The notes below the pieces were generated by a model. The model ran no database searches. It was not told the origin of the DNA and worked only from the letters and a program-made list of their open reading frames with translations. Below, one piece after another: positions 1,903 through 64,000 of a DNA stretch of 64,000 nucleotides. Made by a program: the position numbers and the translations under genes. Source of the DNA: Hydractinia symbiolongicarpus (Eukaryota > Cnidaria > Hydrozoa > Anthoathecata > Hydractiniidae); assembly GCF_029227915.1 (NCBI RefSeq), contig NC_079875.1, forward strand, positions 24,171,001 through 24,235,000. The letters are read 5' to 3'. Positions within the stretch are counted from its first letter, which is position 1. Each line of letters opens with the position of its first letter.

Positions 1903-2625
1903 TTCATGGTGAATTTTCAGAATGGACAGCTTGGTCGAAATGTGACAAAAGTTGCAATTTTGGGACTTCCCGTCGATCGCGCAAATGCGACAACCCAGTA
2001 CCAGCTTATGGTGGCTTAGATTGCTACGGTTCGTCGTTCCAAACAAAAGAATGCAATCCGCAATATTGTCCAGGTAATAAATAAGACTAAAAATAAAAAA
2101 TCCTTTATTTTCCTTATCAACGCAATTCTTCAACAAGATGTCTTTTGTTGCAGAAGCTACTTCTTTTAATTACTTGCAATTTATATATCTTACTTTCTTA
2201 AGCCTAAAATTTGCTAACTTCTGACAAATCAATTGAAATAAAAGCGTGAATTTGCGTAATCAACCAAAAAATATGCATTACTGGGTGCAATTAAAAAGCT
2301 GCGTGCGTAGCAGGAATTCTTTTAAAGAGGTGTATACAGTAGAAATTATTTTTAAAAATTTCTGATTATAACAGTTCCAAGGCGTGTTGCTAGCATTTCA
2401 TATTAAACATTCTTATGTTACCTTGATATTCAGAAAAGTCCCAAAATGTATTTTTAGTTGATGCAGAGGTTGGTGAATGGACAATATGGTCTGCATGTGA
2501 CCAACCTTGTAATGACGGTTGGATGATTCGCACAAGAGAATGCGTCAAAGGAATATATGGCGGCGTAAGAGAGTGTACTGAAAAATTAAAAGAATTTAAA
2601 AGATGCTTCAATAACCCTTGCCCTG
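1903..2625 (+). CDS. Two thrombospondin type 1 repeat exons
   Basis: Exon 1903-2073 encodes a TSP1 module with the hallmarks EWTAWSKCDKSC, an RRSRKC strand and a closing KECNPQYC; exon 2458-2625 encodes another with GEWTIWSACDQPC, RTREC and CFNNPCP. Both carry the six cysteines of the fold and the WxxW Trp ladder that can be C-mannosylated. Both start after one codon base and end one base into a codon (phase 1-1), the usual arrangement for shuffled extracellular modules. TSP1 repeats bind matrix proteins and glycosaminoglycans, so this part of the protein should face outside. Confidence 0.85.
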
Positions 2626-5600
2626 GTAGCTGTTATTTCTTATTTATTTTATGAAAAAGAATGGATCACAAACCCTCTCTATAATATATTGTAGATTTCA
2701 CAATAAAAATAAGTACGAGAAGTTTGATTGATGATGACATCTTTTTTATTTTATTTTAACGGATATTTCGTCTTGTTACTACAAGACATTATCAACGTAA
2801 ATTGTTACAATTATCTTACAAGTTTTTTTAAATATAATTTTCAACAACTACATAATACACAGGTGACGTATAAAACAATATTTAACAAAACATAACCGAA
2901 ATCTTAGCGACTCAAAAATTATATTGGAAGGCAAACTTCTTCTTAACGTTCCGATTGATTTACGTAGTTCTTTCTTTAAACCCTCAGTTTGGATAATGAT
3001 ATTGGCGATTTTAAATTTCACTGAGTATATACCGACAAAGAAAGTAATTTTTGCATTCTGTTTGAAGTTTCTGAAAGCTAAATAAAGTTATTTAACATAT
3101 TTTCCGGTTTTTATGTGGATCGCATAAAAAATTGCCAAAAATTGCCCGAAAATCCATTTCTTTTCAATTTTTAGGTAAAATCCGACAAAATCGGGAAATC
3201 GGAATAATCATGTGTCCAGATTATGCAAAATGATTCTTCTTAATAAAACAAAGTTGTATTGCAAGTTTGAAGTTTTAAGAATAATCCTAACAAGAGTTAT
3301 TAAATTTTCCTCATTATAAGGATTTCATAGAGATATTTAGCGGTAGTTTCGAGTAATGGCCAATATCAAAGTCTCTGAAAGGTATAGGACCTAAAAATTT
3401 GGCTTGCAGGTGTCTAATAAATAAATATTGAAATTCAGTGAGTTTCATAGCCATATAACATAGCAATAAGGAGTTATTAAAAAAAGCCGTCAGGGGGTGG
3501 GGTGGGGGGTGGAATCTGCCCCCGGACCGAATAGGGTTAAAAAACGTTCTAAAAAGCTGTACTTTTCATTATATAGGGTCATCATATATAGGGACGCATT
3601 AACCAGTAACAATTTCATTTTCTTTTTAGAGGCAAGGGTCAACTTTAACATCACAATAGACGCCGTTTATCAACCAGAACTAAGTAACACTAATAGTGAA
3701 AGCTTTCGAATTCTTGAAAAGAATATCCAGAACCAGGTGCGGTCTTTTGTTTTGCAATTAATGTTTTAAGTTCTTTGCAGACATCTTTTAACGATCAGCT
3801 AAGGCTTGCATCATTCAACTCGATAAAAACATATCATACAACAAAAAGGGAATACGAAATGTCAGTGGTAAAAATTTAAGTAGAAGGAAGTGTGTTTAAG
3901 ATCGCAGCTACTTTCTCCCTTTAAATAACAATTCTTTTCGTTTTTAATGTGCTACTCCGAAATTATACAATCATATAGTGATGTAGGAGCTATTTCAGGC
4001 TGTTTCAATTTCAACTTTTTTTATGGTGCTAAATTTTTAAGGCAGCCTCTTCTCGATAAAGAACGTAATTGTTGTGTGAGGAAGAGTACTGAAACAGCTT
4101 TCACCTCTCTTTAGGTGCTTTCGATGTACGATGAACAGTTTCAAGATTCAATAGAAGCTGTAATACTCCTGTCAGCTAGGTATGAATATACGATTCGCAT
4201 ATTGCAACGTAAAAACTAGTTAATTAGTCACAATTAAAGAGCTGTCGCATATTTTCGTAGCTGCTAGAACGACAAAACATATTTAATACATAAGTAATCA
4301 TATTTCAAATGTCACTTTTAAAAGTTTTATTTCCATTGGAGATGTTGACAACAGGAAAATTTAAAACACCCTGGAACCTTGTTAGACTTCTTTGAAACAA
4401 GTGTAGCAGATGTCACATATCGTTCATATTATACCCGCTGTTTCAACAAAACATGAATTAAAAGCATATTTCTTCACTCTTAATGCACATTCATTGACTA
4501 ATAAATATATAGTCGTTATTCCGTAGAAAATCCACAGGAACTCCCGGCAGGAATTTATCCGTTGCTTCTTCCAGCTAGCATCCTACTTTATAACGTTAGA
4601 CACACAATGATCATTAAACAATTTGATGGTGTCGGTAAAAAACCTTTAATAAATACCCGCTTTTGTCTTTCGAAATAGCAGAAGTAATATATTTTTATCC
4701 TCTTTGATGCGGCGGGCGCATTCGCGTGTAATTTTAAGGACGGGCAAACGCGTTCATTTTGCAACAGACTAACTACTAGTTATCCTATTAATTAAATTGC
4801 TAATTGTTTTTGTAAGGTGGGGATAAAACGTAACAATAAAAATTACTCACCTGTAAGATTTTCATAATAAAATTAGCAAGTAGCAAATGAGATGTAACAA
4901 AATCCGCTTCGCGCATTACAGGGGCGCATATTGATACAACAAATGACGTTTTAATTCGTAAATTTAGGAAAGGAAGCATAGTGACGAATTTTACCATAAT
5001 TTACAAAAGCCTTGATTCATATCAACTAGTATTTTTACAAGACAGCATTGAGAAGGAAGAAAGTGTCGGCAAACTTCCCTTGATTGAAGGAAAGAGTCAT
5101 TTTTACATTGAAAGCAACGGTATGTAGCGCGTGAATGTGTCTTTTTAAAAAAGTCAAGTTAATAAGAGAGAAATCAAATCTGTTCTCCAACTTTTTATTT
5201 TTTTACTACAAAACATTTTGACAGCCATATTAACTCCATATTCCATACTTCGAATGTTTGGCAAGCCATATTCACATGCATTTTCAAAGAAACGACTCAA
5301 ATTAGTCTTCATATGAGAAAAAGACGGAAAGATGATCAAAAAATAATTTAAGTTCTATTTTAAAATGAAAATAAAAATAATTTTTAATTCAATTAATTTG
5401 AATATCCCTTCCGTGTAGTTCCCCAATATGCACCTACTGGAATCAAACTTAAATCCACGTCGCCAACGTCAATTCAATTATCATGGAATGAAGTTGATAA
5501 TGCAGTTGCATATGTTGTATGTTTTCGCAAGAGGTTACAACTCTCTGAACCATATCAAAGGTATGCAGCTGCGACCTCGCCAGCAATCATATCAAACCTG

Positions 5601-8600
5601 GAACCAAGAACGGAGTATGTATTTAGAATACTTGCTTATAACCATAAAGGTAATGGCTTTCCATCCGAACAGATAGCATTTTCTACTCAAGGCAAAGGTA
5701 TGTAAATGTCTATATATGACTGTTGAAACAACAAGCCTGTACTATTAATATTTTTCAATGGCCATGATTAAACAAGAAGATTGTAATTTATAATATTTCG
5801 CCCCTTTTTATTCAATGGAAGTAATTATCTTCATGTTGATTTCACTCATTAAAATCATTCACGCGTTGCATTTTTTATTTCAACTTAAGACACCTGATTG
5901 GTTAAAAGTATTCAAAAATGATTAAGGCGGGAACTTTGTAAACATCTCATCTCCAACGCATTTTTACTTTCTTTTTTAATTTCTGAAAAAACATGATTTA
6001 ATACAAAAAGCAACATCTAATATCAATTGTAGCTATATAATCAAAAAAAAATTGCATTCTTGTTAAATATCATATTTATTCACTCTCATTAAAACAATGT
6101 TCAACTCAGCTACCCTCATTAAATATGGCTTTACATTGGGCGAATAAGTATTGGATGCAATATCTTCTTTATCAGTCAAATAATGAAAAACGTCTGATGT
6201 GAGGAAGTACCTTATTTACAATTTTGTTTTCAAAGTTTAATATAATTGCAAGAACCAAACGCAAATCCACTTAGGCATGAGAACAATGGAAAAGAGAATC
6301 ATCATTGAGGTTTTTGAAGACGTCTGCAAGGACCTGTCGTCCATACACAAAAAATAGTTTTTTGGAATTCATCAGCATAATTTTGCAGTTAGATGTAAAA
6401 ACGAAACAAAACAAAATGTTAAGTGTTTATACTTTACATGAAGAAGATCTTTCTTTACGCTCCTTTCTTTAGCACCTGATCAAGCACCAACGAATCTCCA
6501 CATCCACAATTTAAATTCAACTTCTCTTTTCCTGGAATGGGACAGACTCTACAAAAATGAAATCCCAATATCTGGTTACAAAATAGTATATTATGACTAC
6601 AACGTAAATTTGTGGATAGATAAAACGGAGGACCATTACGTTTACATTTCCGATCTTACCCCCGGCTTTACGTATGAATTTGAAGTGTGTGCATATAATG
6701 ACGCGGGTGATGGACCGTCTGAACGAATTCTAACTACTATTGTAGGTTAGTAAGCAGGTTATCCTTTAATCTTATCTGATGCGAAGAAAAATGAAATATT
6801 AAGTACTTAAAAGAAAATTCATTTTTTTTCTTCAAATTTTAACCTTATTTAGATTTAGATGTGACTGACCTGGTCAAAGGTAGGGGGCATTATAATGGGG
6901 CGCCAAGTTAAAATTTAAAAGAAAAACCAATTTTTTTGATTTTAACCCAATATACAACAACCTGGATAGGATTAAAGGGGTTTTTTGAAAAGGAAAAAGC
7001 CCCTATTCTATTTTTTTCAAAATGGTTTCCCGTGAATGTGCATCAAGTTTGATCCTCTTTTTCCCTAGGTGGGGTTAGGGGTGCTGTGTGTTCCAGTAAA
7101 TACGGCAATATACGTTTGAGTGATCTCCCTAGGTAAAGTTTCGCAGTCCTGAAACAAAAGCCATTACTTTTTACTTTTATGAGCTGATAAAGAACAATAT
7201 TTAGATGCTTTCTCTTTTATCTGTTGCAGAAAAGCCAATTGTGAAGGTAGAACTTGCTGAATGCAATACCCATAATACTATCACTGTAAAATGGAAACCA
7301 CCAACTGGTAAACAATCAGTAGATGATATCCTTGGATACTTGATAGAATACTACAAGGTGGAGGATGAACAACTGAGAACGGAGGAGAGATACGAGCATC
7401 AGTTTCTTCTTCATCCCCAAATAGCTGAACAAGTTCTACCAAACCTAAATCCCAATACAGATTATCAGATTGATTTCAACATTGTTCAAGATCACTTGGT
7501 GTTTTTGGAGAAAACGTTGACAGCAAGTACGTGTCTTACTATGACACTGTCATAATATATTAACTGCAAGCCCCGTAGTAGAATATATCTACTTTGCTTG
7601 TCACAAAAACACAAACAAAGTACATGAAGGTCTTATCAATTGAAGAAACAACCTATAGTGCCTGGTATAAGTGTGAAAAGAAGTCAGAAAGATATATTCT
7701 TTATATGGCTTCAATATCATTACCTATATTAATACAGCTAGCCTTTTATAGCATAATAAACTAAGTGTGTGAGTGTGAAAATCGAAGTGGCCTAGAAGTG
7801 TACTTTTCACGGACATGTTGTCTTATATCGCAAAGCCGTGCATTATAATAGATAGAGTGTATTTTGCTTTTTTAACTTAGGAAAAGAAGCATCCCAATAC
7901 AGTTATCAGTCTGAATTATGATTTTGCACTTTTCTGCAATATCTGTTTAGGAACATGTCGCTGCCCACCTGTTGTATCCATCAATTATTACATTGTCAAA
8001 CCATACGTTTATCTTGAAGACAACGAGCTCCGTGGAATATTTGCTGAACTTCTTGACGAAATGATTGATTTTGCTTGTGGAGAATGTCCCTGTAAATTAA
8101 ACGTCACAATGACAAGTATTGACAAAGACCGTGATGGAAGAGGGTCACCTGCGCAAAAATCAACCCTTGATAAAGTGATCCGAGAAATAGACCAGTTTAC
8201 GGATCTATCTTTCCCTATAGTCGGACAAAAAACGTTAAAAAATTATTTAGAAAACGAGTATGTTCCATTAGTTGACCACCCAGGTGTAGTGTTTATTACA
8301 AAGGATAAATCAGTCAATGAAGCTGTAGTCAGCATGTTAATGGTAATGTCAAATGTGATTCCGTTGATCGCGTTGAACATGTTGTTCATGGTGGTGGTGG
8401 GAATGTTGATGTGGTTCATTGTATGACTTTGATTGCGCAAGCTATTACTGCATATATAACTGAAGAAAAAGGGTGTGTGGGAGGGGAAAGCGGCATATTT
8501 TTATCCCCTCCCCCCCTCGAAAAAACTTCTGATAGGCTTTCTCAAACTGGAGTATGTCATCAAGAAAACAAAACAGTAGCAATAAATTTCTTGCTAATGT

Positions 8601-11600
8601 CATTTTTTTCTGACAGGTTATCAGAAGATTTTATATGGTATCTGCAATTTGTTAAATAATTTCTGAGTTTTACGCTGTTACAATTTATCAAAATCAAAAA
8701 CATTCAACTTGATGAAACCTCGGCAAAAAATTGATCTTGAAGATTTTTAAATAACTTATTTAAGCCCAACATTTTTTACTGTGATCATCAACTTTGTTGC
8801 AAAATATTGGTTTTCCCTTTTAGGAAGGTTATCATCAGAATGGTCACACTGACTTTTCTGAGAGAATAATAAAAGGTCTGCAAGATTCTATCTACTGGGC
8901 GTTCATTACCCAAGGAACACACGGGTATAGTAATTCTCTGTTAGCGGCTGTTGATATTTTTAACTAACTCTAAAAAGAACCTGTCATAAAATTGATGGCA
9001 ACTGCTCAATCGAGCATGTTCCAATATCTTACAAAATGTATTGGTTGATATTTAGGTATGGTGACTACGTTCCACGTCATTTTAGAAGTAGGCTCCTTGC
9101 CATGGTTTGGATCATAATCGGTTTGGTTTTAACGGCGCTAGTTACAGGTGCTATCGTGTCCGCTATTAGCAGTGTGGAGTATTCCTCACAAAAAAATATT
9201 TATGACACACATGTAAGTGTTATTTTTCTCTAAAAAATTCTGCCAAAAATTATTTTTAGACACTGACCATAGCCAGAAAAAGAATCAGAAAATTTTATGT
9301 TCCTGCCCAATCTGCGATAACCGGGTTTCTTTACATTTTTACTTTATGTTGAATTTTTACTTCACATGCCTTCTCCTTCCCCTTCCCCCTCTCCCCCACC
9401 CTATAGAGAAGACATATTCTTATATTTTTGCTACTTTGTAAATGTAGATTTTTTTTAGATCGGCGCCTTGAACGGGTCGTTTGAAGAAATGTTTGGAATT
9501 CTTAGAAATGGCAAAGTGAATCGAAGTATGTAGACTTTAAGAAGCTAAAATGTTTAAAAAAGTGAGAAAAAAAGTCTGTACAGAGCATAATCTCGCAAAA
9601 TACACTCCCATAAATAAAGAAAAAAAATAGCTTTGCTAAATCATTAACTGTCTAAAACACTACGCTAGGGAACGTAATCTTCAGCCGACCAAAGCTGACA
9701 TAATTTCATCTCTAAAACATGCTATTTCACAAAAGTTTCTTTCTTCAGAGTCACCATTAGCTAGGGGTATATATTTATATCCTCCTAGCTAATAGTGAAG
9801 TAGGCCTCTGCTAATAAAAAAATGACGTGTGCTATTAAAAAATGACGTGTGCTATTATAAAATGACTAGTCGTTGCCTGTGGAAAAATCCACGGGTTTGC
9901 CCGTCGTTTATATTTACCCGCCGCAACAAAGTGGATAAAATATGTCGCATTTGATATTCGTGTTTCCGTAACATCATTTTCTAACTCGGCTGGGGGTCCG
10001 CGCAGAGACAGACAGACGACGGCTATTATTATAGAGACGTGTGCTATTAAAAAATGACGTGTGTTATTAAAAAATGACGTGTGCTATTAAGCAATGACGT
10101 GTGCTATTAAAAAATGACGTGTGCTATTAAAAAATGACGTGTGTTATTAAAAAATGACGTGTGCTATTAAGCAATGACGTGTGCTATTAAAAAATGACGT
10201 GTGCTATTTAAAAATGACGTGTGAATTAGAAAACATGTAATGTGGAAGCATGTCATCAAACTACTCACTTTACCTGCATGTAATATTTTAACCTGTGCAG
10301 TTACTATTTTTATGTAGAAGCGGTTTATACATCAACTTCACAGCTTGCGGATGCGTTGATCGACGGGGAAATAGATGGTATTCTAGTTGACGCTTACACA
10401 GCCGGGAGTAACAGGGAAGATTTTCAACGCCCTAACTTACGCCCGACAAAAATGTTAAAATACCCTAGAACGTATGGATTCGTAGTGTCTGGTGATCTGA
10501 AAAACGTGGCGAATGCAATGAGAGACTTTATTCGAATCAATGAAAAACGCATATTAGACAGTCTGTCAATGAATACTCATTTGATGGAGGTAAAGAATGT
10601 GTTTGTTGTTGTTTTTCTTCTTACTAACTTACTAACTTTATAGACACAACACTACATAATACTCACGTTAAGAGGGTCTTCTAAGGATATTAAAAATTGG
10701 TCCAATTTAGCAAATGTTCCACTTAAACAAATATACTTAAAAAAGAGAGATTATGATGAAGAGTTCTAAAGGTACCGCTTACCGAAAGTTGATGCAGCTT
10801 GTGAGTAGTAGCGTGAGAAAAGGCAAAGGTAAAGAGATTTTGTAAAAGTATTTGTGCTTTTTCAACGCAATGTATTTATTCGTATTCATTTTTCTATCTC
10901 CTGTGTCAAAAGTCATTGCACTGAAGTGCCATTTAAGCAGAGTGTTTTGTGTCACTAAACGAAAGTTCCACTTACCCGGCTTATGTTTTTATTTAGTAAG
11001 GAAGTTCATGGGAGCGAGTTCCACTTATCCATGATTTCTCTTAATGCAAGTAGTAGTTAGAACATTGCTGGCTTTACCTTCAACTTTCTTATCTTGATAG
11101 ATATGGAACTAAATATCTTTGCGTAGCTTATTTAATCCACCGACTCCTAGATTCTATGCCTCTTCTTATTACCAATTTTCCGTCGGGAGATATCAAGTTA
11201 CGTCTTTTATTTAGTATCGTACAACTTACTAACCCCAGTATAATCGTAAGGCATTTTGTCTAGCAAAAACCGGCCCGAAAATAACTTCAATAAAAAGGAC
11301 CTTTTATCGAAAATTAACTCATTAATATTTCACAGTATGGGATGCAGCGATATAATGAAACCCATAATTTTCACGTTATCCAAGATTATTTAAGAACGCT
11401 AGGCGAATATTACAGAAACCGGTTATTAAGTTAAAATTCGTAAAAAAATGAGAAGGAAGGTGTAGCCCTGCTTAAAACAGTATAACATAGGACCAAAAGA
11501 TAGGGTGTGGTCACGTATATTTTGTGTCTAGATAAAACTGAAGTGGTAATTTAAATATTAATCTACATAGGCTTTACTTTTCGTTTCAGCCGGTTTCGTT

Positions 11601-13136
11601 GAACGAGCCAACATCAGTATTTAATCCGACATCAAGCGTTTTTAAATCCGCTATCATTGCGCTCTCCAGTATGTTGATGTTTGCTTCTTGCGTTGGAATG
11701 GTGTACACGTGTTGTAAACGAAGTCGAAGACGAAAAGTTGCAGCAGACGCTAAAGGTGAGAATTTATCGTGTTACTAACGTGTTCTCTACAGATGCAACC
11801 AACCGTGTTCCTAAGGTAATATGCCTTTCTAAAATGATTAAGGGACCAAATGACTGAGGGCGTGATTAAGATGCATCGTTATAGACTCGTATTAAGCATC
11901 TCTATATTAAAGTGGAGATACAGAGATGTTCATTCTTTTCAATAATTAACTAAACCTCCAAAAATCAAACAATTGCAGCTAACAGGCAAAAATGATTGAA
12001 CAAAAATGATCGGTTATGTCCTTAATAAAGACTCTCTAAACAGCAGAGAGCGGACGGAAGGTTTCCTAGTAACGGAAATTCTCTCGAATTAAGGGACAGG
12101 TGATAAATACAATTGCTTTACAATTGTTTTTTTGTATAGTGTCAACACACCGGCAGATACGGACATAGCTATCTTATTATTTTATACTTTATACCTGTTA
12201 AATAAAATAGTGGAGGAATAAATTTCTAATAATAATAATAATAAGTTTTTTTAATTCTTTTGCCTAAAATAAGAAGCGATGCCGAATTGTCGAAATACTG
12301 CAGCGTGTGTAACGAGGGGAAATTGAGAAAAACCACCTCATTAGCGGTCAAAAAGTAATTTCACCAAACGTTTGCAATTACTGTATTTTCAACAGGGTAA
12401 GCACAAATTGAAACTTGATGCGGTCATGCCAAGAAAGTTGAAATTATTTTCCGTGGTATTGGCCTTTATTTCCAGGTTTAAAATTAATCCGTACAACATA
12501 TAGCAAAGTTTACGTGTATTATGTCAGATAAAAATTCCCAACAAAGTATGTTTGAAACAATTAAAAATCAAGTTGAATTGGCTAAAAAGAAGCGTCATAA
12601 TTTAGACTTTTATTTGTTTAGCTTTAAAACGACTTCAGAAAACGGAGAATTTAAAAGACATTCTTCAAACCTTTGCTTCATCGTTTCAAAATAACTGCAA
12701 GGAATTAGCCAGGAAGCATGATTTACAAAGAATTAAGCTTTATCGTGCCATACTGTCTGGAGAGAGGGTAAACACCATGGGCACGAGGCCGAACACATCA
12801 ACTCGAAACGCATGGTTCGTACCGGAAGGAAAAGAAGAAGAAAAACGGTTCGATGGCAGAGGGGAGGATAACCCATCATTTAGTGGGATGGAGGTAAAGA
12901 AATGTCAACAAGCTTTACCGAACACACAAAATGATTTCGAGGAGATGACAGTGAAAACAAAATTTGGCGATGTGACATGCTATGATTTATCACCTCAACC
13001 AACGACTTTAGTAACAGCAGAGGGAGAAGAAACGAGACAAGATAACAAGACGAAATGCACAGGTGACAAGCAGAAGGGTAATTTATCATGTAGTAAGAAG
13101 AAGCAAGATTACAAAAAACTGATACCGTGGTACTAA
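1903..13136 (+). CDS. Chimeric TSP1-SEA-FN3 glutamate-receptor-like channel with K+-type filter (5' partial)
   Basis: Fifteen exons (1903-2073, 2458-2625, 3630-3736, 4115-4179, 4968-5119, 5419-5697, 6473-6745, 7230-7526, 7951-8420, 8824-8924, 9056-9212, 9459-9525, 10318-10589, 11590-11755, 12622-13136) join with matching phases and GT/AG borders into at least 1085 residues ending at TAA 13134-13136. Counting from the first complete codon at 1905, the order is TSP1 (1-56), TSP1 (57-112), SEA (113-220), FN3-like modules (221-503), ligand-binding half S1 (504-630), M1 (about 632-660), pore loop with GYGD (694-697), M2 (700-735), S2 half (740-860), last TM (about 880-902), cytoplasmic tail (903-1085). 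The topology S1-M1-P-M2-S2-M3 is that of ionotropic glutamate receptors, but the amino-terminal ATD is replaced by adhesion-type modules and the filter is potassium-channel-like. The upstream exon(s) with the signal peptide lie outside or were not recognised. The ligand is unknown. Confidence 0.85.
3340..3538 (+). repeat. Dispersed repeat, copy in receptor-gene intron
   Basis: The 3' part (CATAGCCATATAA..., then CCGTCAGGGGG, a G/C-rich hairpin, and GGACCGAATAGGGTTAAA) recurs at 32538-32655. The G-rich run followed by C-rich sequence can fold on itself or form a G-quadruplex. Family not recognised. Confidence 0.55.
3630..5119 (+). CDS. SEA domain encoded by three exons
   Basis: Exons 3630-3736, 4115-4179 and 4968-5119 join in phases 0 and 2 to give a SEA-type module: opening strand VNFNITIDAVYQPEL, helix SFRILEKNIQNQ, helix SMYDEQFQDSIEAV, then the turn RKGSIVTNF, where the G-S pair lies at the usual autoproteolysis point of SEA domains (family knowledge), and a closing FTIIYKS strand. 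The acceptor at 4967 was chosen over one at 4921 because only it keeps the frame with the donor at 4180 and it places the GS motif correctly. Cleavage here would leave a non-covalently held TSP1 ectodomain on the channel. Confidence 0.72.
4690..4780 (-). mobile_element. Degenerate hairpin/microsatellite element, copy 2
   Basis: The minus strand reads ACTAGTAGTTAGTCTG then a decayed hairpin, GTTTGCCCGTCC and GCGGCGGG-type sequence as in the other family members. No microsatellite core or clean 3' end is visible, so this is a truncated or older copy inside a receptor-gene intron. Confidence 0.4.
5419..7526 (+). CDS. Three fibronectin type III-like module exons
   Basis: Each module is one phase 1-1 exon: 5419-5697, 6473-6745 and 7230-7526. 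The first two are clear FN3 domains, with APT starts, the conserved tryptophan (LSWNEV; LEWDRL), the L.P.T.Y motif (LEPRTEYVFRI; LTPGFTYEFEV) and A.N..G.G.PS ends. The third has the tryptophan (VKWKPP), a YLIEYYKV strand and LNPNTDY, but a long insert with two acidic stretches, so it is a divergent FN3. These form a stalk between the SEA module and the ligand-binding domain. Confidence 0.82.
7951..11755 (+). CDS. Ligand-binding halves, pore and transmembrane helices of the channel
   Basis: Exon 7951-8420 carries S1 (INYYIVKPYVYLEDNELRG, IFAELLDEMIDFACGECPC, a LSFPIVGQ element) and M1 ending GMLMWFI. Exons 8824-8924 and 9056-9212 give the pore helix DSIYWAFITQGTH, filter GYGD, YVPR and the following helix LLAMVWIIIGLVLTALVTGA. 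Exons 9459-9525 and 10318-10589 hold S2 (IGALNGSFEEMFGI, LADALIDGEIDGILVDAYTA, RTYGFVV). Exon 11590-11755 is the last helix (SAIIALSSMLMFASCVGMVY) with a basic stop-transfer CCKRSRRRK. In animal glutamate receptors the P loop lacks GYGD; a TVGYG-type filter is known from the bacterial receptor GluR0 (family knowledge). The usual S1 arginine for the amino-acid carboxylate is not obvious. Confidence 0.82.
9811..10226 (+). repeat. 20-bp minisatellite with CRE-like units, split by a transposon
   Basis: The unit is AAAAATGACGTGTGCTATTA. Two units lie at 9819-9860 and nine more follow at 10051-10226; the hairpin element 9866-10035 sits inside one unit. Variant units (TTATTAA and GCAATGACGT forms) recur every 80 bp, so there is a four-unit higher-order period. 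Every unit holds TGACGTG. It lies in the intron between the two S2 exons. Confidence 0.85.
9866..10035 (+). mobile_element. Hairpin/microsatellite element (HINE-like), copy 3
   Basis: It starts CTAGTCGTTGCC, has the hairpin GTGGAAAAATCCAC, then GGGTTTGCCCGTC, and ends ATTATTATAGA. It interrupts a 20-bp minisatellite unit, so its borders can be read directly: left flank AAAATGA, right flank GACGTG. Apart from a possible GA duplication no target-site duplication is visible. Confidence 0.65.
12622..13136 (+). CDS. Cytoplasmic tail exon of the channel gene
   Basis: The last exon encodes about 171 hydrophilic residues after the final transmembrane helix. It begins with a helical, amphipathic stretch (KRLQKTENLKDILQTF, RKHDLQRIKLYRAILSG) followed by a charged, Lys/Glu/Thr-rich disordered region ending KLIPWY and TAA. 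No known domain is recognised. The acceptor TTTGTTTAG at 12613-12621 and phase 1 entry fit the donor after 11755. Confidence 0.75.
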
Positions 13137-37168: not shown

Positions 37169-37839
37169 CATTTATTTATGACATGGATATTATTTGTACT
37201 GATCATTATTTTAGCTATATAATATTGTAATAGATTATAATTTGAGAATACATGATTTATTATTCTTTTCCTCCAGCCATTTTTTGTCCTCTTTGGTTCT
37301 CCCCTATAGACACTGCATTTGTCCACTTGAAGCCTAGCTTGTGCTAAATATTTTAGAATTCAAAACAGTATGTGTCAGTTGTTAGGCTTAGCCCATCTTA
37401 CAATAATTAATGTTGATATTGTTGATATAATAATGTTGATATTTGCATTTACAATGAAGTTTTTTTTTTCCTGTCTGAATATACATTTTAACAAAGTTTT
37501 ATCCTAAAATAACAAAAGAAATCTTTTTTTTAAAAGATAAAAGTTCTTTTTAACTATAACCTCAAATAAAAGCATGCAACTAAGAAACAAATAAAAATTA
37601 AAAAAATTCAAGAAAATTTCAGCCAATATTCAGGCATTTTGCTAAGAATATTGAGGCTTAAGTCAAAAAACGATTTTCTTATAAACAAAATGGTATGCAA
37701 TTTTTCCTTTTCACAGAGTATATACTATTTTTCCTAATATACCTAAACGATACAGATTTTTGCGGTAATTAATTTTGCAGATGTGCAAAATAATACTATA
37801 AAGCTGGCTATAGATGCAAGATATATATTTTTTATCCTA

Positions 37840-37907
37840 GCCCTGTCCAGGATTTGAACCTGGATCTCTCATTTCTAAGAGTGTCATAACCATTAGACCA
37901 ACAGGGC
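37840..37907 (-). tRNA. tRNA-like cloverleaf, probably a pseudogene
   Basis: The minus strand gives a perfect 7-bp acceptor stem (GCCCTGT/ACAGGGC), a D arm GTCTAATGGTTATGAC, and a perfect T arm CCAGG-TTCAAAT-CCTGG with a B box. The anticodon arm CTCTTAGAAATGAGAG has a 6-base loop and the variable region is short, so the total is 68 bases against about 72 expected and no anticodon can be assigned. It could be a decayed tRNA or the head of a SINE. Confidence 0.5.
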
Positions 37908-38157
37908 TTGAATGTATATACAAAACACTACAGGTAAATATTATATACACTTAGAAATTTACAGCACAAATAAACCTTTTTTTAAGAAATGCTCAGTTAA
38001 GCTACAAGTGACTGTGTTATCTGACATTGAACGTCTAATGAAATGATTAATAAGATCTGTAAACTGTGCACACATTCAGGTGGAGCGCTTAAGTAAAGGT
38101 ATATATATGCAATATGTCGTAAATGAGGGTAGCAACACTAACGTGGTTCAGGTGTAG

Positions 38158-40430
<2,273 letters not shown>

Positions 40431-44650: not shown

Positions 44651-45171
44651 CCAAAGCGTTTTGTGTCCGGGCGTGATTGCGCTTGTACTTAAAGTTCCCG
44701 CTTAAATTATTTTATTCAAACCCTCTTGAAATTGGAAATTTCGGGTGCGTGTTTTTATGAAAGTTTCTTGACGACAAGCCTTGGATTATTGGATAAGTTA
44801 TTATTTAATAATTTTGGTTTATTAAATAAGTTATTATTTGATAACTACTTTGGATTGTGTTTGAAACTTCTGTGTTTTGTTTATTTTTTTTGTTTGCCTG
44901 CTTTTGGATAACTTCTCTTGCCGACAGGTGGTTGGGGAGGCCACAAGTTTGATAAACTTTATATAGTTAATTTTTAAAGTTATTTTTTGGTTTATTTTGT
45001 TTGCCTGGTTGGATAACTTCATTTCCCCGAATTTAGCTCGCTGAGTTACTTTAGATTATTTTTGAAAGTTTTGCGTTCTGTGCAATTTCTTTTCCCCGGA
45101 AGTTAGCTAGCTGATATTTCACAGTGTCTCAAGGATCCCAAACAAGCCTTATTTTAGTTTGCCCACAAATC

Positions 45172-46293
45172 ATGATATCGATTCAAGCATATCGATCCAC
45201 CATTGGTGCTTTTTATACCGCAGCTGCTAGTCACTGCCATAACAATACATCAATAAATCATAACCACCACAAGTTATCAAATCATAAATTGGTTTTCGAC
45301 ACTACTAGCCAAGATTATTTTTGCTTTTTAAGAACTTTCATTTTAATGATTTTTGTGTCATTGCTGAGCTGTAATATAAACCTTGTGTCATTAAAATTAC
45401 TGTTGTTGTTGTCTGGTGACGTTGAAAGTAATCCTGGGCCTTTTACCAATAATGATATTGACTTCCAGATTGCATGTCAGGAATCATATGCCACACATCT
45501 TTTTAACAACTCAAATTCCGCCAATCAAATAGTTGCACATGCTAGAAGTATTGGTCTGTCGAATGTCACATATCAGGAAGTAACAGCCGGTGATGGTAAT
45601 TGTTTCTATAGAGCAGTGATACAACAACTTAATAGACCCGAAATTAGGGAGCGTATCCCCAATGCACTACATTTTGAGGATCACCTCCAACTTCGTGCGG
45701 CTGTTGTTAATTTTGTACGAAAAAATAACGATATGCCAGTTTTTGTAGTTAGTAGAACTGTTGAAATAATCAGCCCTGAACAATGGGAACATTTTTTAAA
45801 AGCTCAGTCAAGATCAACTGTGGACGTTGAAGAGATTTTTATACGGGCTGCAGCAATAATGTTAGGGATCAATATTTTAATAACATCAGATACTACCACT
45901 GCTGAGCATCCCTATACTGTTATAGCTCCTACTTTTGAAGAAACTGATGAACTTTCTGCTGATCAACAGGCAGCACAAATAATAAATGAAGGCTTCTTTA
46001 TTTTGCTTGGAAGGGTTAATAATAATCACTACCAGTCATTAATATTTCATAACAGTGTGAACACCTCTGCTAGTAATTCTGCAAGTAGTCCACCTAAAAA
46101 AACTACTCGGTTGTCATCAGAACATATCATTCAACCTAAAAATATAAATTGTCAAAAAACTGATTTGGGAGCGAACAGTTTCAGCCAAAGCCAGGATTTT
46201 CTAGTGGCAAAAATAATGAGTTCTATCATGTCAGCCAATAAATTAAAGAACAAATTTTCAGCTAGAGTATGCTTTAAAGCAAAAATGTGTTGA
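45172..46293 (+). CDS. Helitron N-terminal ORF: 2A-like peptide and OTU protease
   Basis: From ATG 45172, 373 residues. A hydrophobic segment (FLRTFILMIFVSLLSCN, then LLLLL) precedes GDVESNPGP at about residues 82-90, a canonical 2A ribosome-skipping motif. An OTU cysteine protease follows: AGDGNCFYRAV with Cys about 144, and NNNHYQSLIF with His about 286. The frame ends early: sequence past 46255 continues in another frame with charged helical residues, so the original ORF was longer. A 2A at the N-terminus after a signal-like segment recalls the arrangement known for some non-LTR retrotransposons. OTU could remove ubiquitin-like tags. Confidence 0.75.
   Translation: MISIQAYRSTIGAFYTAAASHCHNNTSINHNHHKLSNHKLVFDTTSQDYFCFLRTFILMIFVSLLSCNINLVSLKLLLLLSGDVESNPGPFTNNDIDFQIACQESYATHLFNNSNSANQIVAHARSIGLSNVTYQEVTAGDGNCFYRAVIQQLNRPEIRERIPNALHFEDHLQLRAAVVNFVRKNNDMPVFVVSRTVEIISPEQWEHFLKAQSRSTVDVEEIFIRAAAIMLGINILITSDTTTAEHPYTVIAPTFEETDELSADQQAAQIINEGFFILLGRVNNNHYQSLIFHNSVNTSASNSASSPPKKTTRLSSEHIIQPKNINCQKTDLGANSFSQSQDFLVAKIMSSIMSANKLKNKFSARVCFKAKMC
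45415..45441 (+). other. 2A-like ribosome-skipping motif
   Basis: Codes for GDVESNPGP, matching the DxExNPGP consensus exactly; the run of leucines immediately before is typical of active 2A contexts (family knowledge). Skipping would release the upstream hydrophobic leader from the OTU-Rep-helicase polyprotein. Confidence 0.8.
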
Positions 46294-46353
46294 TTCAAAT
46301 ATTACATATGAGGAACGAAAAGTAAACGAAATAACTACTGAAACCAAAAAAGA

Positions 46354-48915
46354 CGTAACCGAATAACTCATAGACTAAAACGTTCACAAACTCATTCTAC
46401 TTTTCGAAAAACAACAGTTCCACAACCAGTGTCTAAGAGTGGTAAAGGGAATATATTGCTAACAAATTTACCAACCCCAGAAACGAAAACTGCAAAGTCA
46501 ATATCAGTGAATTTACCTGTCAATCACCCAATACCCTCTAGCGTTACTATCAACCAACCAGTTAGCCAGCAAGAAATATTTCAAACAGAACTTTCTACCA
46601 TTCATCCAAATCCTGATGTTGTTGCAGCTGTACAAAAGTTTGAGGAGGGCGAGATGTTACATAGTTTAGCCTCTTGTAAAACTTGTCTTGAAATCCGACC
46701 AGTATTTCATGCTACCTCACCCATCAATCAAACTGCAAAAAATGGAACAAAACCAATTTCTCTCAAACCTTGGAAAATTTCAAGTGATGGAAGGTGTTCC
46801 AGATGTCATACTGAAAGTATTCGTAATTCAAAACAAAATATGGTGATAGCTGCCAGATATTCGGGTATATTTAGTGTTGACAATGACGATTTGGGTCCAA
46901 TACAAGATAATATTCGTCATAACGATATGCATTTTTCACCTGTACCGCCGTATCTTCAAAACTTGACAATATTAGAAGAAGCACTGATTCGTCGTATAAC
47001 CGTTATTATGAATGTACACCTCTTGCGTTATGGCATGCTTGCATCTAAAGGTCATTGTATTAGTTTTCCACAAAGAATGCAAATTGCTACTGAGTTACCG
47101 TCATTGCCAGCAAATGTGGGGATAATTGTTATAAAGAAAAAAGGAAGCCGGAATTCAATTCAACAATATACTGTGAAAAGAAGTAAAGTTGACAAAGCTT
47201 TGCGTGGTTTGTGTTTTGGTTTTCCTGAAGGTGGAGTTGACCAGCCAGATATTCTAAACAAGCATCTATATAATGGCCCTGACCACATTAATCATAAATT
47301 AAGAAGACGTTACTTTCAGTATTTACCTAACGAGTTCTACAAGGATGTCTCTATCAAAAACGATCGCATTCTAAATTTACCTGAGATACGCTCAGAATTA
47401 CCTGATTTACCTGTTGTTGAGTTACCGCATATCACACCTGAAGGAGACAAGGGTCCTGTCGAAAATCAATTCCAACAAGATCTTCCTGATGATGATGAAA
47501 GTATCACTCGATCAGGTTTAGTATGCCCTATTGAACCTAAAGATGCTGACAAAGAATTAAGAACAATATTACAAAAGATGTTAGGATCAGAAGAAGCAGT
47601 CAATCAAGCTCTACAACAAGGCACAGTTGCTAGTGCAAATTTGGAATACACCCGAGAAAGGCCAATTCGTGAATTAAAAACTCCAGGCTTTTTTACAATG
47701 GCATACCCTACTGTTTTTATTAATGGTCATTGTGACTTTACTGTTCCGAGGTTACAAAAAATCAAATTTGAGGACTACATTGAACATATATACCACTGCA
47801 CAGATAACCGTGTAACCAAACATCCTTACTTAAAATTTTTCTTATTGAACATGCGATTGCGGATGCAAGCATTGCAACAGGGTAGTTTTGTTGTTTCTCA
47901 GCAATTAAATGATGCTCATCTCACAATTGCAGAACTGAGAGAAAATTTGCAAAACAATGATGATTCTGTTCCACGGAAAATTATCAGCATTGGTAAAAAC
48001 TTGGTAAATACTGACCCTTACTGGAGAGAACAAAAAAAGAAGGTAGATGTCATGTTGTTTTTCAGACGCAAGGAGTTTGGTGATCTGCCAGCCTATTTTG
48101 ATACCAATAGTTGTGCAGAATTTCATTGGAAGCCCTTACACGAACTGCTGATACAGTATCATGCATTAATAAACAATTTAGATGAACAGGTTGTGCGTAG
48201 CCAGGTAGAAAGTGATGGAAAATTCAAACGGGAATTAATCTTGCATAATCTTCACATTGTCACACAGTACTTTGATGCCAGGACTATAAATTACTTTGCC
48301 ACTGTCAACAAGGAAGTATTTCAATATGATGATTATTGGTGGCGCTATGAATTTGCTAAAGGCAGAGGTGAAATTCATAGTCACTCTATCATATCATCCT
48401 CTAAACATGCACAAAAGGTTAAAACAATAATGGATAATTTATCTGATGATGCCACTGACTCTCAAGCATCCCAAACTGCTGCACATGACCTTCAACAATG
48501 GTTACAAACTACAAATGAAGATAGAGATGGAATATTTTCTCCCCAATTTACTTCATTACATCCTGCTGGAGGGACTGAAATGATAGACGATGTCACTGGA
48601 GTTACAACGTGGGTACCAAACAGAGATAAATGGGCAGTCCCGGAAGGAACTCAAGAAGCTCCTGGCTATAACCCATTGACACAACAACTTTCAGATGTTG
48701 CAAACCATGAAGGTGGTATAAGAGAACAGCACATTTATCTTGTAAATAGAATAGGACTACATAACTGTAATTCTAGTTGTTTGCGTTACCGTCGTAAAAA
48801 AAAAGCGAAAGGGATACTGCTCCACAAAAGTACTGCCGTTTTCACTTTGGTGATGTCGATCCACAAACCAAAAAAACAAGTGGCAAAGAAATTCACCCCT
48901 TTCACCCAATCATAA
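46354..48915 (+). CDS. Helitron Rep / Helitron-like N region
   Basis: An open frame with no reliable start codon of its own; it continues the OTU ORF after two apparent frameshifts (about 46260 and 46350). Order: basic segment, zinc-finger-like Cys pairs (CKTCLEI and CSRCHTES), the Helitron-like N domain (YFQYLPNEFYK, GFFTMAYPTVFINGHCDFTV), then WRYEFAKGRGEIHSHSI, where HSH is the HUH metal-binding motif of the Rep nickase. It ends in a wrong frame after a run of nine A at 48796-48804; the correct frame continues into the helicase ORF. Confidence 0.75.
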   Translation, partial: RNRITHRLKRSQTHSTFRKTTVPQPVSKSGKGNILLTNLPTPETKTAKSISVNLPVNHPIPSSVTINQPVSQQEIFQTELSTIHPNPDVVAAVQKFEEGEMLHSLASCKTCLEIRPVFHATSPINQTAKNGTKPISLKPWKISSDGRCSRCHTESIRNSKQNMVIAARYSGIFSVDNDDLGPIQDNIRHNDMHFSPVPPYLQNLTILEEALIRRITVIMNVHLLRYGMLASKGHCISFPQRMQIATELPSLPANVGIIVIKKKGSRNSIQQYTVKRSKVDKALRGLCFGFPEGGVDQPDILNKHLYNGPDHINHKLRRRYFQYLPNEFYKDVSIKNDRILNLPEIRSELPDLPVVELPHITPEGDKGPVENQFQQDLPDDDESITRSGLVCPIEPKDADKELRTILQKMLGSEEAVNQALQQGTVASANLEYTRERPIRELKTPGFFTMAYPTVFINGHCDFTVPRLQKIKFEDYIEHIYHCTDNRVTKHPYLKFFLLNMRLRMQALQQGSFVVSQQLNDAHLTIAELRENLQNNDDSVPRKIISIGKNLVNTDPYWREQKKKVDVMLFFRRKEFGDLPAYFDTNSCAEFHWKPLHELLIQYHALINNLDEQVVRSQVESDGKFKRELILHNLHIVTQYFDARTINYFATVNKEVFQYDDYWWRYEFAKGRGEIHSHSIISSSKHAQKVKTIMDNLSDDATDSQASQTAAHDLQQWLQTTNEDRDGIFSPQFTSLHPAGGTEMIDDVTGVTTWVPNRDKWAVPEGTQEAPGYNPLTQQLSDVANHEGGIREQHIYLVNRIGLHNCNSSCLRYRRKKKAKGILLHKSTAVFTLVMSIHKPKKQVAKKFTPFTQS

Positions 48916-48962
48916 CAAAAGGGGAACATCCAAGGTATGAAGGACCTATAGATCACAGCCGC

Positions 48963-51689
48963 ATGATAATGCATGTCAAGACGCGTTTACTTAGTTGGCT
49001 TGCAAACTGTGACAGTCAAGTAATTATTGACCAGGATCTTATTGCCCTTCAAAAATACATTGCTGGCTATGCTTGCAAAGGAGCAGCTTCAACTGAAGAT
49101 TTTGTACATATTTATCGACATTTAATAGAAAATGCTGCTGATGGAAGCACAGTAAAAAATTTAGCTCAAAGGTTGCTTCAAAAAATTACAGGGATGGTGG
49201 ATGTGCCAGCAGCTGCTGCTGATTTTATTAATAGTGGTGGTCATTTGACTAGATGTACTCGAAACTTCCGTTACATTGGTCTAAGTGGATTCCGGACCTT
49301 AAATACATCTGGTGAAGATGAAACTGTGACAAAAAGCAGTACACTTGACAAATTTTTAAGTGATAAGCGAAGACAGACTGAACCTGAAATCACTTTATGG
49401 GATTGGAGCAAGAAATGCAATTGCACTTGTAAGATGGATCATGTCCCAGTATTCACAGGATTATCAACAAAACCTGTTTGGCCTGTTACAGAGGACTTTG
49501 CAAAAGCCATGCTCATGATATTTACTGTTGGAACATGGCGCACTGTGGAAGAATTAAAGGGACAACAGGAGTCGTTTGCTGGCGCATTGGCTGACTTAGT
49601 TGAATCTGATAACTGTCCGCCAATACTAACTAATGCATTAAAAGAAGCCAAAAAATCTTTTGACTCGAAAAAAAGAAAAACACAATATCATGTACGACCA
49701 ATCAATGATAACAACACTCAGCCTTCATCACAATCATCCCAATCTACCATTGCAAGTTCTCAAGATTCAACTTTTGCAAATATGAACATAGGTAGGGCAA
49801 TAATGAGAGATATCGCTAGAAATCATGTTTCTGATATGGACGAGCCAAATGTAGAACAGATTCTTCCTGATGGAGGATCTTTTTTTGATTGGAATAATTA
49901 TGCAATTCAATGTTTTGGTTGTCAATGGCCTAATAACGCTGATACTTGGTTGAAATCTGTATCTGTAGAAGCTGAAAGAAATGAATTTACTCACGGTGAT
50001 GATTGCACATTACCTGTGATAAATGTCCTAAAAGCTAATGAACTACAAAGAACAGTCATTGGAATAAATCTTCAGCATTTGCTACTAGTTGCAAAAGGAA
50101 ATTTGCCAAAAGGCACCAAGCCATTAAATTTGTTAATTCAAGGCACAGCTGGTGTTGGAAAAACATTTATTATCACCGCTCTCACCAGAATTGTTCGTCG
50201 TTTATTTAATCGAAATTCTGCTGTTATGAACTTGGCCCCAACTGGTGCCGCATCTGTTCTTATACCAAATGGGCGAACTATACATTCCATGACACCACCA
50301 CCACATAAATTAAAAAAAGATAAGGATTCAAATTGTGTTCAGCTCTCTGATTATCCATTAGGTGATACATCTTTGAGGAAATTGAGAAAATATACAGGTC
50401 TGCATGAAGACAATGGACTTAAGTTATTTCAACTGAACATTGATGAGCGTAGCATGCAGTCTAAGCTTCTTGTAGCCTGGTGCAGTCAACGATTATGCGA
50501 GTCAACAGGTGATTTTGATAATTATTATGGAGGAGGAATACCAACTGTCAATTTCTTTGGTGACCTTGGCCAACTTGGGCCAGTGCGTGCTTTAGATCTT
50601 CATCAACCTCCTAAATATGATGACTCAACCATCAACTTAGCTGGTTATGCAATCTATCGCTCATTTGAAAATGTTATTGTTCTTACTGAAACGATGCGTC
50701 AAGGGCCAGATCAGTTACCTCTTTTACAGCGGCTTCTTCGTATACGTAATGGTTCAATTACCCAACAAGACTGGCTAGATATTAATAGTCGTTATGAAGG
50801 CGCCTTGTCACAAACTGAGAAATGTAACTTTTCACATGACCGTGTGCTCACATTAATGGAAACATGGAAGGAAGTTAATGAAGAAAACCACAATAAATTA
50901 GCTAACCTTGGTGTACCAGTTGCTGTTATTCCATCAACGGGTCGTGGTAAACATCATTCATTAACTGATAGACAATTGGGACAAATTCCATCACGGTCTT
51001 TGATTGCAGTTGGTGCCAGTGTAATACTAACTAAGAACCAAAAGGGTCTTACTGGACTTGGCCTTAATAATGGTGCAATGGGTAAAGTGATTGCAATTCT
51101 TTATGCTCCAGATACATCACCGCCTGAATTCCCTATTGCTGTTGTTGTCAATTTTCCAAATTATAAAGGACCAGTATGGCTTGTTGAACATCCCACATGG
51201 GTACCAATTACTCCTGTTGAAGGACGATGTGAGTCAGATTGTTGCGTTAGAAGTGGATTACCATTAATGCCAGGTTACGCTATAACAATTGCAAAAAGTC
51301 AAGGTATGTCTATTGGAGATAGTAAAACTGCCACACATATGCGTATAAAGTTACAACAAGGAATTGAAATGGAGAAAAATAACCTTGGTACAGCCTATAC
51401 TGCCTTTTCACGTTGCGAGAAGGAGAAAAATTGGGCCCTTGTTGAACCACTTACCCAGGAGAGACTCTTGTACATTAATTCACACCCACGTATGAAAGCA
51501 AGACAAGAAGAAGAAAAGCGATTGAAATTGTTATCAGGTAAAACTGTTGAGAAGTTTAGTATTACTACTCAAAGATATATTGATCTGTTAAGGGAACTTG
51601 ACGAATTTTGCAATGATGAAATTGAAGATGCAGTTTGTCCATCTCAATCTACTGTTTGCACATGTATTGTATGTAAATCTACACTGTAA
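48963..51689 (+). CDS. Helitron Rep tyrosine region and PIF1-type helicase
   Basis: 908 codons from ATG 48963, in frame with sequence from about 48805. It starts with the end of Rep (QKYIAGYACKG, two tyrosines four residues apart as in the Helitron nickase), then a Cys-rich spacer (CNCTCKMDHV). The helicase has Walker A GTAGVGKTF (50149 onward), motif Ia LAPTGAAS, Walker B-type NIDERSM, motif III FFGDLGQLGPV, motif V AITIAKSQGMS and motif VI TAFSRCEK, the PIF1/RecD-like set of SF1. All motifs are intact. The ORF ends with a Cys-rich CTCIVCKS and TAA; no apurinic endonuclease domain follows, unlike some Helentrons. Confidence 0.85.
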   Translation: MIMHVKTRLLSWLANCDSQVIIDQDLIALQKYIAGYACKGAASTEDFVHIYRHLIENAADGSTVKNLAQRLLQKITGMVDVPAAAADFINSGGHLTRCTRNFRYIGLSGFRTLNTSGEDETVTKSSTLDKFLSDKRRQTEPEITLWDWSKKCNCTCKMDHVPVFTGLSTKPVWPVTEDFAKAMLMIFTVGTWRTVEELKGQQESFAGALADLVESDNCPPILTNALKEAKKSFDSKKRKTQYHVRPINDNNTQPSSQSSQSTIASSQDSTFANMNIGRAIMRDIARNHVSDMDEPNVEQILPDGGSFFDWNNYAIQCFGCQWPNNADTWLKSVSVEAERNEFTHGDDCTLPVINVLKANELQRTVIGINLQHLLLVAKGNLPKGTKPLNLLIQGTAGVGKTFIITALTRIVRRLFNRNSAVMNLAPTGAASVLIPNGRTIHSMTPPPHKLKKDKDSNCVQLSDYPLGDTSLRKLRKYTGLHEDNGLKLFQLNIDERSMQSKLLVAWCSQRLCESTGDFDNYYGGGIPTVNFFGDLGQLGPVRALDLHQPPKYDDSTINLAGYAIYRSFENVIVLTETMRQGPDQLPLLQRLLRIRNGSITQQDWLDINSRYEGALSQTEKCNFSHDRVLTLMETWKEVNEENHNKLANLGVPVAVIPSTGRGKHHSLTDRQLGQIPSRSLIAVGASVILTKNQKGLTGLGLNNGAMGKVIAILYAPDTSPPEFPIAVVVNFPNYKGPVWLVEHPTWVPITPVEGRCESDCCVRSGLPLMPGYAITIAKSQGMSIGDSKTATHMRIKLQQGIEMEKNNLGTAYTAFSRCEKEKNWALVEPLTQERLLYINSHPRMKARQEEEKRLKLLSGKTVEKFSITTQRYIDLLRELDEFCNDEIEDAVCPSQSTVCTCIVCKSTL

Positions 51690-59123: not shown

Positions 59124-59969
59124 GTCACTTAAATATAATATACAAAACAACAAAACGTTAATATGAAGATATATTGTAATTCTTCTGTAAATAGCGTAAA
59201 AAATCAGTTAATATAATTAGAACGTAAAAATGTACAAAGGAATTAATATTTACAAGGCTTCAACATAATCTAACAAGTATGTAAATCAAAGAAGGTCTCA
59301 TTTACATTAAAGCATCTTCAACTTACCATCACTGTCAGTATTTCCATTTGCATTTAAATTGTCATCTACAGTAGCTACAACATCTGCAAAATATCACAAT
59401 AATAACTTGTTATTGGTTATCTTAAATTAATGTATTCTAATTAATTATGTTTTCCTCTTACCATCGCTTTCATTGATCTTATTGAATATTTCTTTGTTCG
59501 AAAATTCTACGAAATGAGAAATTCAATCAATGAAGTAAAAATTGACAAAATATATGTTTAAAAAATTCAGTTCAACAACAGACTATTAAAACTTTTTTTG
59601 ACTTATCATCCGAAACTGACTACAACATGCAGTAACTAAAAACTTGATATAATTACATATATCTTTACCTGTCATATCTTCTATCTATCACATTTTATCT
59701 AAAGTTTCTAATTTTCTATATTTGATTAGTCTAATATGCAAATATCCCGGTAATTTGTTCACGTTTTTACTTCACTTGCTTCAAAATAACTGCTTCTCTT
59801 AACTTTTTTCTTTCACTGTCTGGTTTGTTATGTCGGTTTCCTGTTGTATTTGGACGAAAACGTTCTATTCTATTTAAAAAAATTCTAAAAATAAGTTAAG
59901 GCCCTGAACACATTGGAAATAAGACAAATGTTTTTCTATTGCTTCTCCTCCGCATTAAATATAGAGATA

Positions 59970-63400: not shown

Positions 63401-64000
63401 ATCGTTGACGAGCAGAAATAGAATTTGTTAAAGCTGATATACCTTTTCGCTGACATGCAGCATCTGCATTTATCGTTTGCTCTAATGTCAAGTCGATTAG
63501 TAATCTTGAGAATGACTTTTGGGTTCTTCGCAGCGAAAATAATCCCCTTTGAAATTCAGTGTAAACCTCGGGATGAGAGTCCTTTAGTTTGAGAAGATTA
63601 TCATGATAACGGACAATCCAACGAGCGTAATTTGGATGGTTCATGCTAAAGAAATAGTTTGCGACTTTAGGCAAGCAACACACATACAGATCAAAGTTCC
63701 GATTAAGCAGTGATTTCAAAAACATTAAATATATTGTATAAATACAATACGCCATGTCACTTAAATATAATATACAAAACAACAAAACGTTAATATGAAG
63801 ATATATTGTAATTCTTCTGTAAATAGCGTAAAAAATCAGTTAATATAATTAGAACGTAAAAATGTACAAAGGAATTAATATTTACAAGGCTTCAACATAA
63901 TCTAACAAGTATGTAAATCAAAGAAGGTCTCATTTACATTAAAGCATCTTCAACTTACCATCACTGTCAGTATTTCCATTTGCATTTAAATTGTCATCTA
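60405..64000 (-). mobile_element. TIR transposon with FEN-like nuclease, copy 2, cut by window end
   Basis: Same as 55773-59368 shifted by 4632 bp with only isolated substitutions (for example AATTCTC to AACTCTC in the left repeat). It starts directly after the shared TA at 60403-60404. The right arm lies outside the window. Confidence 0.9.
61372..63755 (-). CDS. FEN1/XPG-like nuclease protein of the TIR transposon, copy 2
   Basis: Exons 61372-61448 and 61577-63755, identical in layout to copy 1. One amino-acid difference is visible in the main exon (Pro to Leu at position 96, counted from the start of the open frame), and all seven acidic residues are kept. The frame is undamaged, which with the near-identity points to a very recent origin of the pair. 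One upstream small exon (from 63959) is cut by the window edge. Confidence 0.75.

Follow-up and report, generated by a model that had tools for sequence, protein, structure and literature searches.

We analysed a stretch of 64,000 nucleotides (the window) from the 481-Mb genome of the hydrozoan Hydractinia symbiolongicarpus (contig NC_079875.1; C1:24171001-24235000), concentrating on a forward-strand gene at window positions 1903-13136 that joins adhesion-type modules to a channel core with a K+-channel-type filter. Its 15 exons, described in an earlier note made from the letters alone, were all recovered where that note placed them; they are consistent in phase, are separated by 14 introns with GT-AG borders throughout and fuse into a single frame of 1,085 residues closed by a TAA stop at 13136. 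The encoded order is TSP1, TSP1, a SEA-like domain, three FN3 modules and then S1-M1-P-M2-S2-M3, with the filter THGYGD. Among the domains that the earlier note had named, Pfam matched FN3 (three copies, E 5e-36), TSP_1 (two copies, E 1e-12) and Ion_trans_2 (E 2e-11) strongly, and SEA (E 7e-5, 23.4 bits against a cut-off of 26.4) and Lig_chan (E 5e-4, 20.2 bits against 30.8) below cut-off.

The two TSP1 modules lie in exon 1 of the window (1903-2073), which begins in phase 1, and exon 2 (2458-2625). The SEA-like domain is spread over exons 3 (3630-3736, first part), 4 (4115-4179, middle) and 5 (4968-5119, last part), with Gly-Ser (GSIVT) in exon 5 at the usual SEA cleavage place, and exons 6 (5419-5697), 7 (6473-6745) and 8 (7230-7526) each encode an FN3 module. 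These ectodomain modules are carried by phase 1-1 exons or exon groups, the usual mark of exon shuffling. Exon 9 (7951-8420) encodes the S1 half of the ligand-binding-like domain, with its CxC and CxxC cysteines, and M1; exon 10 (8824-8924) the pore helix and the first part of the filter (TQGTHG); and exon 11 (9056-9212) the remainder (YGDYVP) and the pore-lining helix. S2 starts in exon 12 (9459-9525; ALNGSFEE), continues in exon 13 (10318-10589) with an invariant Asp-Ala and ends in exon 14 (11590-11755), which adds the last transmembrane helix (M4 of ionotropic glutamate receptors, iGluRs) and a basic cytoplasmic stretch. The cytoplasmic tail and stop lie in exon 15 (12622-13136), whose first 44 residues align with the Hydra protein P0008. 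Judged by eye, short units of roughly 20 bases are repeated in tandem within intron 12, at 9800-10230.

The extent given in the earlier note held for the 15 exons and failed for the gene start at 1903, which must lie further upstream because exon 1 begins in phase 1 and further in-phase exons precede the window. Four such exons were found in the 20 kb upstream (L009, L010), at C1:24160989-24163647, 7.4-10 kb ahead of the window start; they encode a Ser/Thr-rich segment (756 bases, 31% Ser+Thr), a TSP1, a Cys-rich segment and another TSP1. Pfam confirms both TSP1 domains, so the gene has at least four TSP1 modules. With these exons the open frame reaches 1,543 residues, and their junction with window exon 1 (CPIHG) reads alike in Clytia P0001 and Hydra P0008. 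For the Ser/Thr-rich exon, it is phase that suggests membership of the gene. No clear candidate for a signal-peptide exon appeared in the window's ATG list, the upstream stretch not having been scanned for one; the N terminus of Hydra P0008 is hydrophobic and, by eye, resembles a signal peptide.

Hydrozoan homologues and a gene family in Hydractinia

The nearest proteins come from Clytia and Hydra; at NCBI they carry only the label "uncharacterized", and the UniRef names of the Clytia proteins refer to their FN3 domain. BLASTP against Hydra P0008 (LOC100211324 isoform X2, 1,208 residues) gave a single alignment of 975 columns with 321 identities (33%), running from TSP1 into the cytoplasmic tail and spanning every module junction. 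Clytia P0001 (1,279 residues; four TSP1, three FN3 and the pore) aligns with the window protein over its full length in the same order, and Clytia P0007 (923 residues) joins three FN3 modules to the channel and has no TSP1. TSP1 and FN3 modules score above the Pfam cut-off in the window protein, P0001 and P0008, as do TSP1 in the upstream exons and FN3 in P0007. Because the full-length alignments with P0008 and P0001 cross exons 8-9, sequence comparison indicates that the window exons form one gene, and we reject a two-gene fusion artefact. That a single gene joins both parts was the claim of the earlier note, and homologues with both parts in related genomes, the test it had set beforehand, are present in Clytia and Hydra. 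Protein searches returned no homologue from non-hydrozoan animals; absence there cannot be concluded, because two of these searches scored just 8,000 and 7,997 candidates sharing most words. A ciliate K+ channel (P0009) matched at E 4e-3.

Rather than the single odd case it was first taken for, the gene belongs to a family. Its S1-M1 exon matches at least 21 loci in the genome, comprising 17 single matches (the window gene included) and 4 split matches that may be broken copies or have a different exon layout; the search was run with the window core and with a distant paralogue, and the counts are lower bounds. We took upstream stretches of about 10 kb from 17 of the 20 paralogues, leaving an 18th (L048, a partial relative on C4) out of the counts. 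Both TSP1 and FN3 exons lie on the channel strand in 14 of the 17 (tblastn, E 0.01), and the remaining three carry SEA and FN3 (L031), TSP1 only (L046) or neither TSP1 nor FN3 (L045), so that TSP1 and/or FN3 exons occur in 16 of 17; given the length of the stretches, modules absent from one may sit farther away. Two paralogue pairs have identical match scores (C1:12.46/16.05 Mb and C8:10.748/10.758 Mb) and are either recent duplicates or assembly duplicates; the C1 pair was read as near-identical.

The same genome also holds a single-exon group of GluR0-like genes (L022 and L025-L028, contigs C4 and C13; GluR0 is Synechocystis Slr1257) with an intronless core, no ectodomain modules and the filter TTVGYGD in all five read. 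More long-open-frame matches, some of which may belong to this group, lie on C1, C4, C5, C6, C7, C11, C12 and C13. A tree of 24 cores is consistent with a group-2 clade (support 99) separate from the family; because node support inside the family ranges from 23 to 100, we draw no branching order.

Pore, ligand-binding-like domain and ectodomain

Hydropathy places three hydrophobic segments around the P-loop, the iGluR layout that the earlier note had proposed, and S1 and S2 are split by a pore of two transmembrane segments and a P-loop, the arrangement by which we recognised the iGluR superfamily in its broad sense, GluR0 types included. The P-loop itself is of K+-channel type, combining TxGYG with an Ion_trans_2 match above cut-off. 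TxGYGD is present in all eight paralogues read (of 20), with x being His, Leu or Ile; this position is His in the window protein, His and Gln in the Clytia proteins and Ala in Hydra. The proposed K+-channel filter is thus conserved across the paralogues read, Clytia and Hydra, whereas none of seven P-loops read from canonical iGluRs of the same genome contains GYG. The filter is split by an intron directly ahead of its Tyr (exon 10/11 border, window 8924/9056), at the same site in the paralogues read. An ordinary voltage-gated K+ channel was considered and ruled out, as the match is confined to the pore and there are three hydrophobic segments.

S2 is predicted to have a periplasmic-binding-protein-type fold. 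The predicted S2 matches periplasmic-binding-protein lobes, with GluR0 among the top rows whether bacterial rows were included or not. The AlphaFold model of the core built with bacterial-type rows has a mean pLDDT (predicted local distance difference test) of 53; because these rows could have steered it, S2 was folded anew without them, giving a model of mean pLDDT 59 that is good only for residues 5-73. With the pore removed, S1+S2 of the family and of the single-exon group are related at E 1e-11. Against solved sequences, S1+S2 also matched FAR1 proteins (E 3e-4), which we judged a coincidence of cysteine patterns. Lig_chan scored 34.4 bits in Clytia P0007, above the cut-off of 30.8, and 16.3 in Hydra P0008, below it, and Clytia P0001 was not among the matches at E ≤1.

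In amino-acid receptors an acidic S2 residue binds the amino group of the ligand. Asp178 of S2 (alignment column) is invariant in all ten members aligned and faces an Asp of GluR0-like proteins in hhalign; the Asp-Ala of S2 is likewise invariant in all ten, and Ser/Thr is kept at an iGluR binding-residue site. The carboxylate of the ligand is bound in iGluRs by an Arg of S1. Between FPI and the conserved Gly of S1, one or two Arg residues stand at differing columns in C1:4.80, C1:5.78, C8:22.41, C11:7.61 and Clytia P0007, and no S1 column has Arg in most members of this weak alignment of ten rows.

Gly-Ser occurs at the SEA cleavage place in the window protein, Clytia P0001 and 9 of the 17 paralogue stretches, as GSVIV in two. 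The available parts of two papers give the self-cleaving consensus as GSxxV (PMC9478142) and place MUC1 cleavage between Gly and Ser of GSVVV (PMC9564314). The best match of the SEA profile among solved sequences, the adhesion G-protein-coupled receptor ADGRF1, is not significant (E 0.15). Only some members can plausibly be cleaved, because the window motif is GSIVT and P0008 and P0007 have no Gly-Ser. Standard iGluRs carry an amino-terminal domain (ATD); Pfam matched no ATD family in any of the proteins scanned (the window protein, P0001, P0007 and P0008) or in the four exons upstream, the gene's first exon not having been found, which agrees with the earlier proposal that adhesion-type modules replace the ATD.

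Elsewhere in the window, forward-strand open reading frames (ORFs) at 45115-51689 encode an OTU protease, DUF6570 and a PIF1 helicase, the latter two overlapping in different frames; we infer a Helitron-like element, whose first ORF (OTU protease) carries GDVESNPGP, which we take to resemble a 2A skipping motif. Two near-identical ORFs of 767 residues lie on the reverse strand (56904-59207 and 61536-63839); the first, the only one scanned, has no Pfam match. A forward-strand ORF at 32572-33345 matches DUF4116 (E 4e-22), to our impression odd company for an animal gene. A long TA microsatellite at 38193-38901 has several open frames on either strand, and a tRNA gene was called on the reverse strand at 37838-37908 by ARAGORN (anticodon unresolved) and Rfam.

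A candidate adhesion-type K+ channel and its alternatives

K+-selective glutamate receptors are known from cyanobacteria and from a rotifer. GluR0 is K+-selective and glutamate-gated in the accessible parts of PMC12332018 and PMC11479355; it and bacterial GluR0-like proteins share with our family the S1-M1-P-M2-S2 order, the TxGYGD filter and the predicted S2 fold, whereas the family adds the last transmembrane segment, a cytoplasmic tail, a Cys-rich S1, the TSP1/SEA-like/FN3 head and about 20 copies, and has no conserved carboxylate Arg. AvGluR1 of the rotifer Adineta vaga, a K+-selective glutamate receptor (accessible parts of PMC12332018, PMC11479355 and PMC12226733), is likewise an animal iGluR with a K+-channel filter, compared here by description rather than by sequence; PMC12332018 describes it with the usual eukaryotic iGluR architecture, and the accessible parts mention no TSP1/SEA/FN3 head. 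Canonical animal iGluRs (AKDF, NMDA and epsilon), present in the same genome, share the M1-P-M3-M4 topology; the seven read in this genome differ in the filter, and standard ones carry an ATD. The single-exon K+-filter receptors have the same S1-M1-P-M2-S2-M3 core and, unlike the window gene, neither ectodomain modules nor core introns. SEA-tethered receptors such as MUC1, ADGRF1 and GPR126 also place an adhesion- or mucin-like head on a membrane protein, whereas the membrane part here is an ion channel and the SEA-like domain, with GSIVT, scores below cut-off. The literature searched (titles and abstract openings, with subscription journals mostly outside) contained no account of this architecture or of cnidarian K+-filter iGluRs; by term matching, one animal iGluR phylogeny (PMC6307864) yielded no match to fibronectin, potassium or Clytia, and another (PMC12226733) none to Clytia or Hydra. 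K+-filter iGluRs are thus already known, and it is the adhesion ectodomain, the expansion and the hydrozoan home that look new.

We lean, with some confidence, towards a hydrozoan-expanded branch of the GluR0/iGluR superfamily that kept the K+ filter, each protein contributing a subunit to a tetrameric receptor channel with an adhesion ectodomain. Four subunits would form the channel, and the S1 and S2 halves an extracellular clam-shell domain; from GluR0/iGluR kinship, ligand-driven closure of the clam-shell would exert a pull on M1 and on the inner helix that opens the TxGYGD-lined pore. From the type of filter, the receptor is probably K+-selective and hyperpolarising, in that K+ efflux would hyperpolarise and hence inhibit the cell. 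As adhesion modules, the TSP1, SEA-like and FN3 domains in the ATD place would anchor the channel in matrix or mucus or on a neighbouring cell, and the SEA-like Gly-Ser suggests that a cleaved, separable joint may hold the head in some members.

Several observations weigh against this reading. In the filter of the window protein, as in that of Clytia P0001, His occupies the position at which K+ channels usually carry Val/Ile, and GFGD, a variant used by some K+ channels, stands in place of GYGD in the metagenomic relative P0002. S1 is poorly modelled (pLDDT blocks of 24-41 over residues 1-110). With the pore removed, S1+S2 matched no relevant Pfam family in any of ten members, the best binding protein among solved sequences (a substrate-binding protein) reached only E 0.73, and the single-exon group matched bacterial S1+S2 only at E 0.073 (probability 0.8%). 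Arg is absent from the FPI-to-Gly stretch of S1 in five of ten members (the window protein, Clytia P0001, C1:12.46, C1:5.81 and Hydra). At the SEA site, GSIVT has Thr instead of the consensus Val in a domain of sub-cut-off score, and Gly-Ser is missing from P0008 and P0007.

Some of these points would fit an alternative that we consider unlikely yet take seriously, in which the adhesive ectodomain mainly gates or tunes the channel through binding, pull or separation of the SEA joint, yielding a contact- or force-operated K+ channel, with S1-S2, at the same low likelihood, a degenerate coupling lobe without ligand. The conserved module order (in the window gene, Clytia and Hydra, with TSP1 before FN3 in 14 of 17 paralogue stretches), the recurrent Gly-Ser and the weakly conserved S1, in which no column keeps the usual Arg, speak for it; the invariant Asp-Ala, the Ser/Thr at the iGluR binding site and the Arg in the right S1 stretch of some members speak against it, as does the single-exon group, whose lack of an ectodomain means that the core can presumably work alone. 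A scaffold-like role has been proposed for delta receptors, and an adhesion receptor for which the channel fold is a scaffold, conducting without selectivity or not at all, would suit the filter His, the GFGD of P0002 and the long adhesive head; we hold it improbable, since TxGYGD is kept in eight paralogues and the Hydra protein while x varies, the pattern that selection of the filter backbone for permeation would produce. Two adjacent genes, one for an adhesion protein and one for a channel, merged on paper only, are most improbable of all: the exon model was drawn from sequence and the phase 1-1 modules could be spliced elsewhere, but P0008 and P0001 are single annotated proteins matching across exons 8-9, P0007 unites FN3 and channel, and TSP1 and FN3 exons share the channel strand in 14 of 17 paralogue stretches.

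Under the favoured reading of a K+-filter receptor channel with an adhesion ectodomain, hydrozoans would join the rotifer with AvGluR1 as a second group of animals in which glutamate-receptor-like channels kept a K+ filter, and the family pairs such a pore with adhesion modules. This opens to test the origin of ligand-gated channels from K+ pores, cnidarian fast inhibition through K+-conducting receptors and contact gating of an iGluR-like channel, and Clytia and Hydra are laboratory models. A more tentative extension, possible though doubtful, is that hydrozoans have ligand- or contact-gated adhesion K+ channels, with GluR0-like pores and breakable SEA-tethered TSP1/FN3 heads, through which touch, matrix or neighbours bring about fast inhibition. 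If true, these channels might serve, for example, prey, substrate or self recognition and would form a receptor class unlike the described animal iGluRs.

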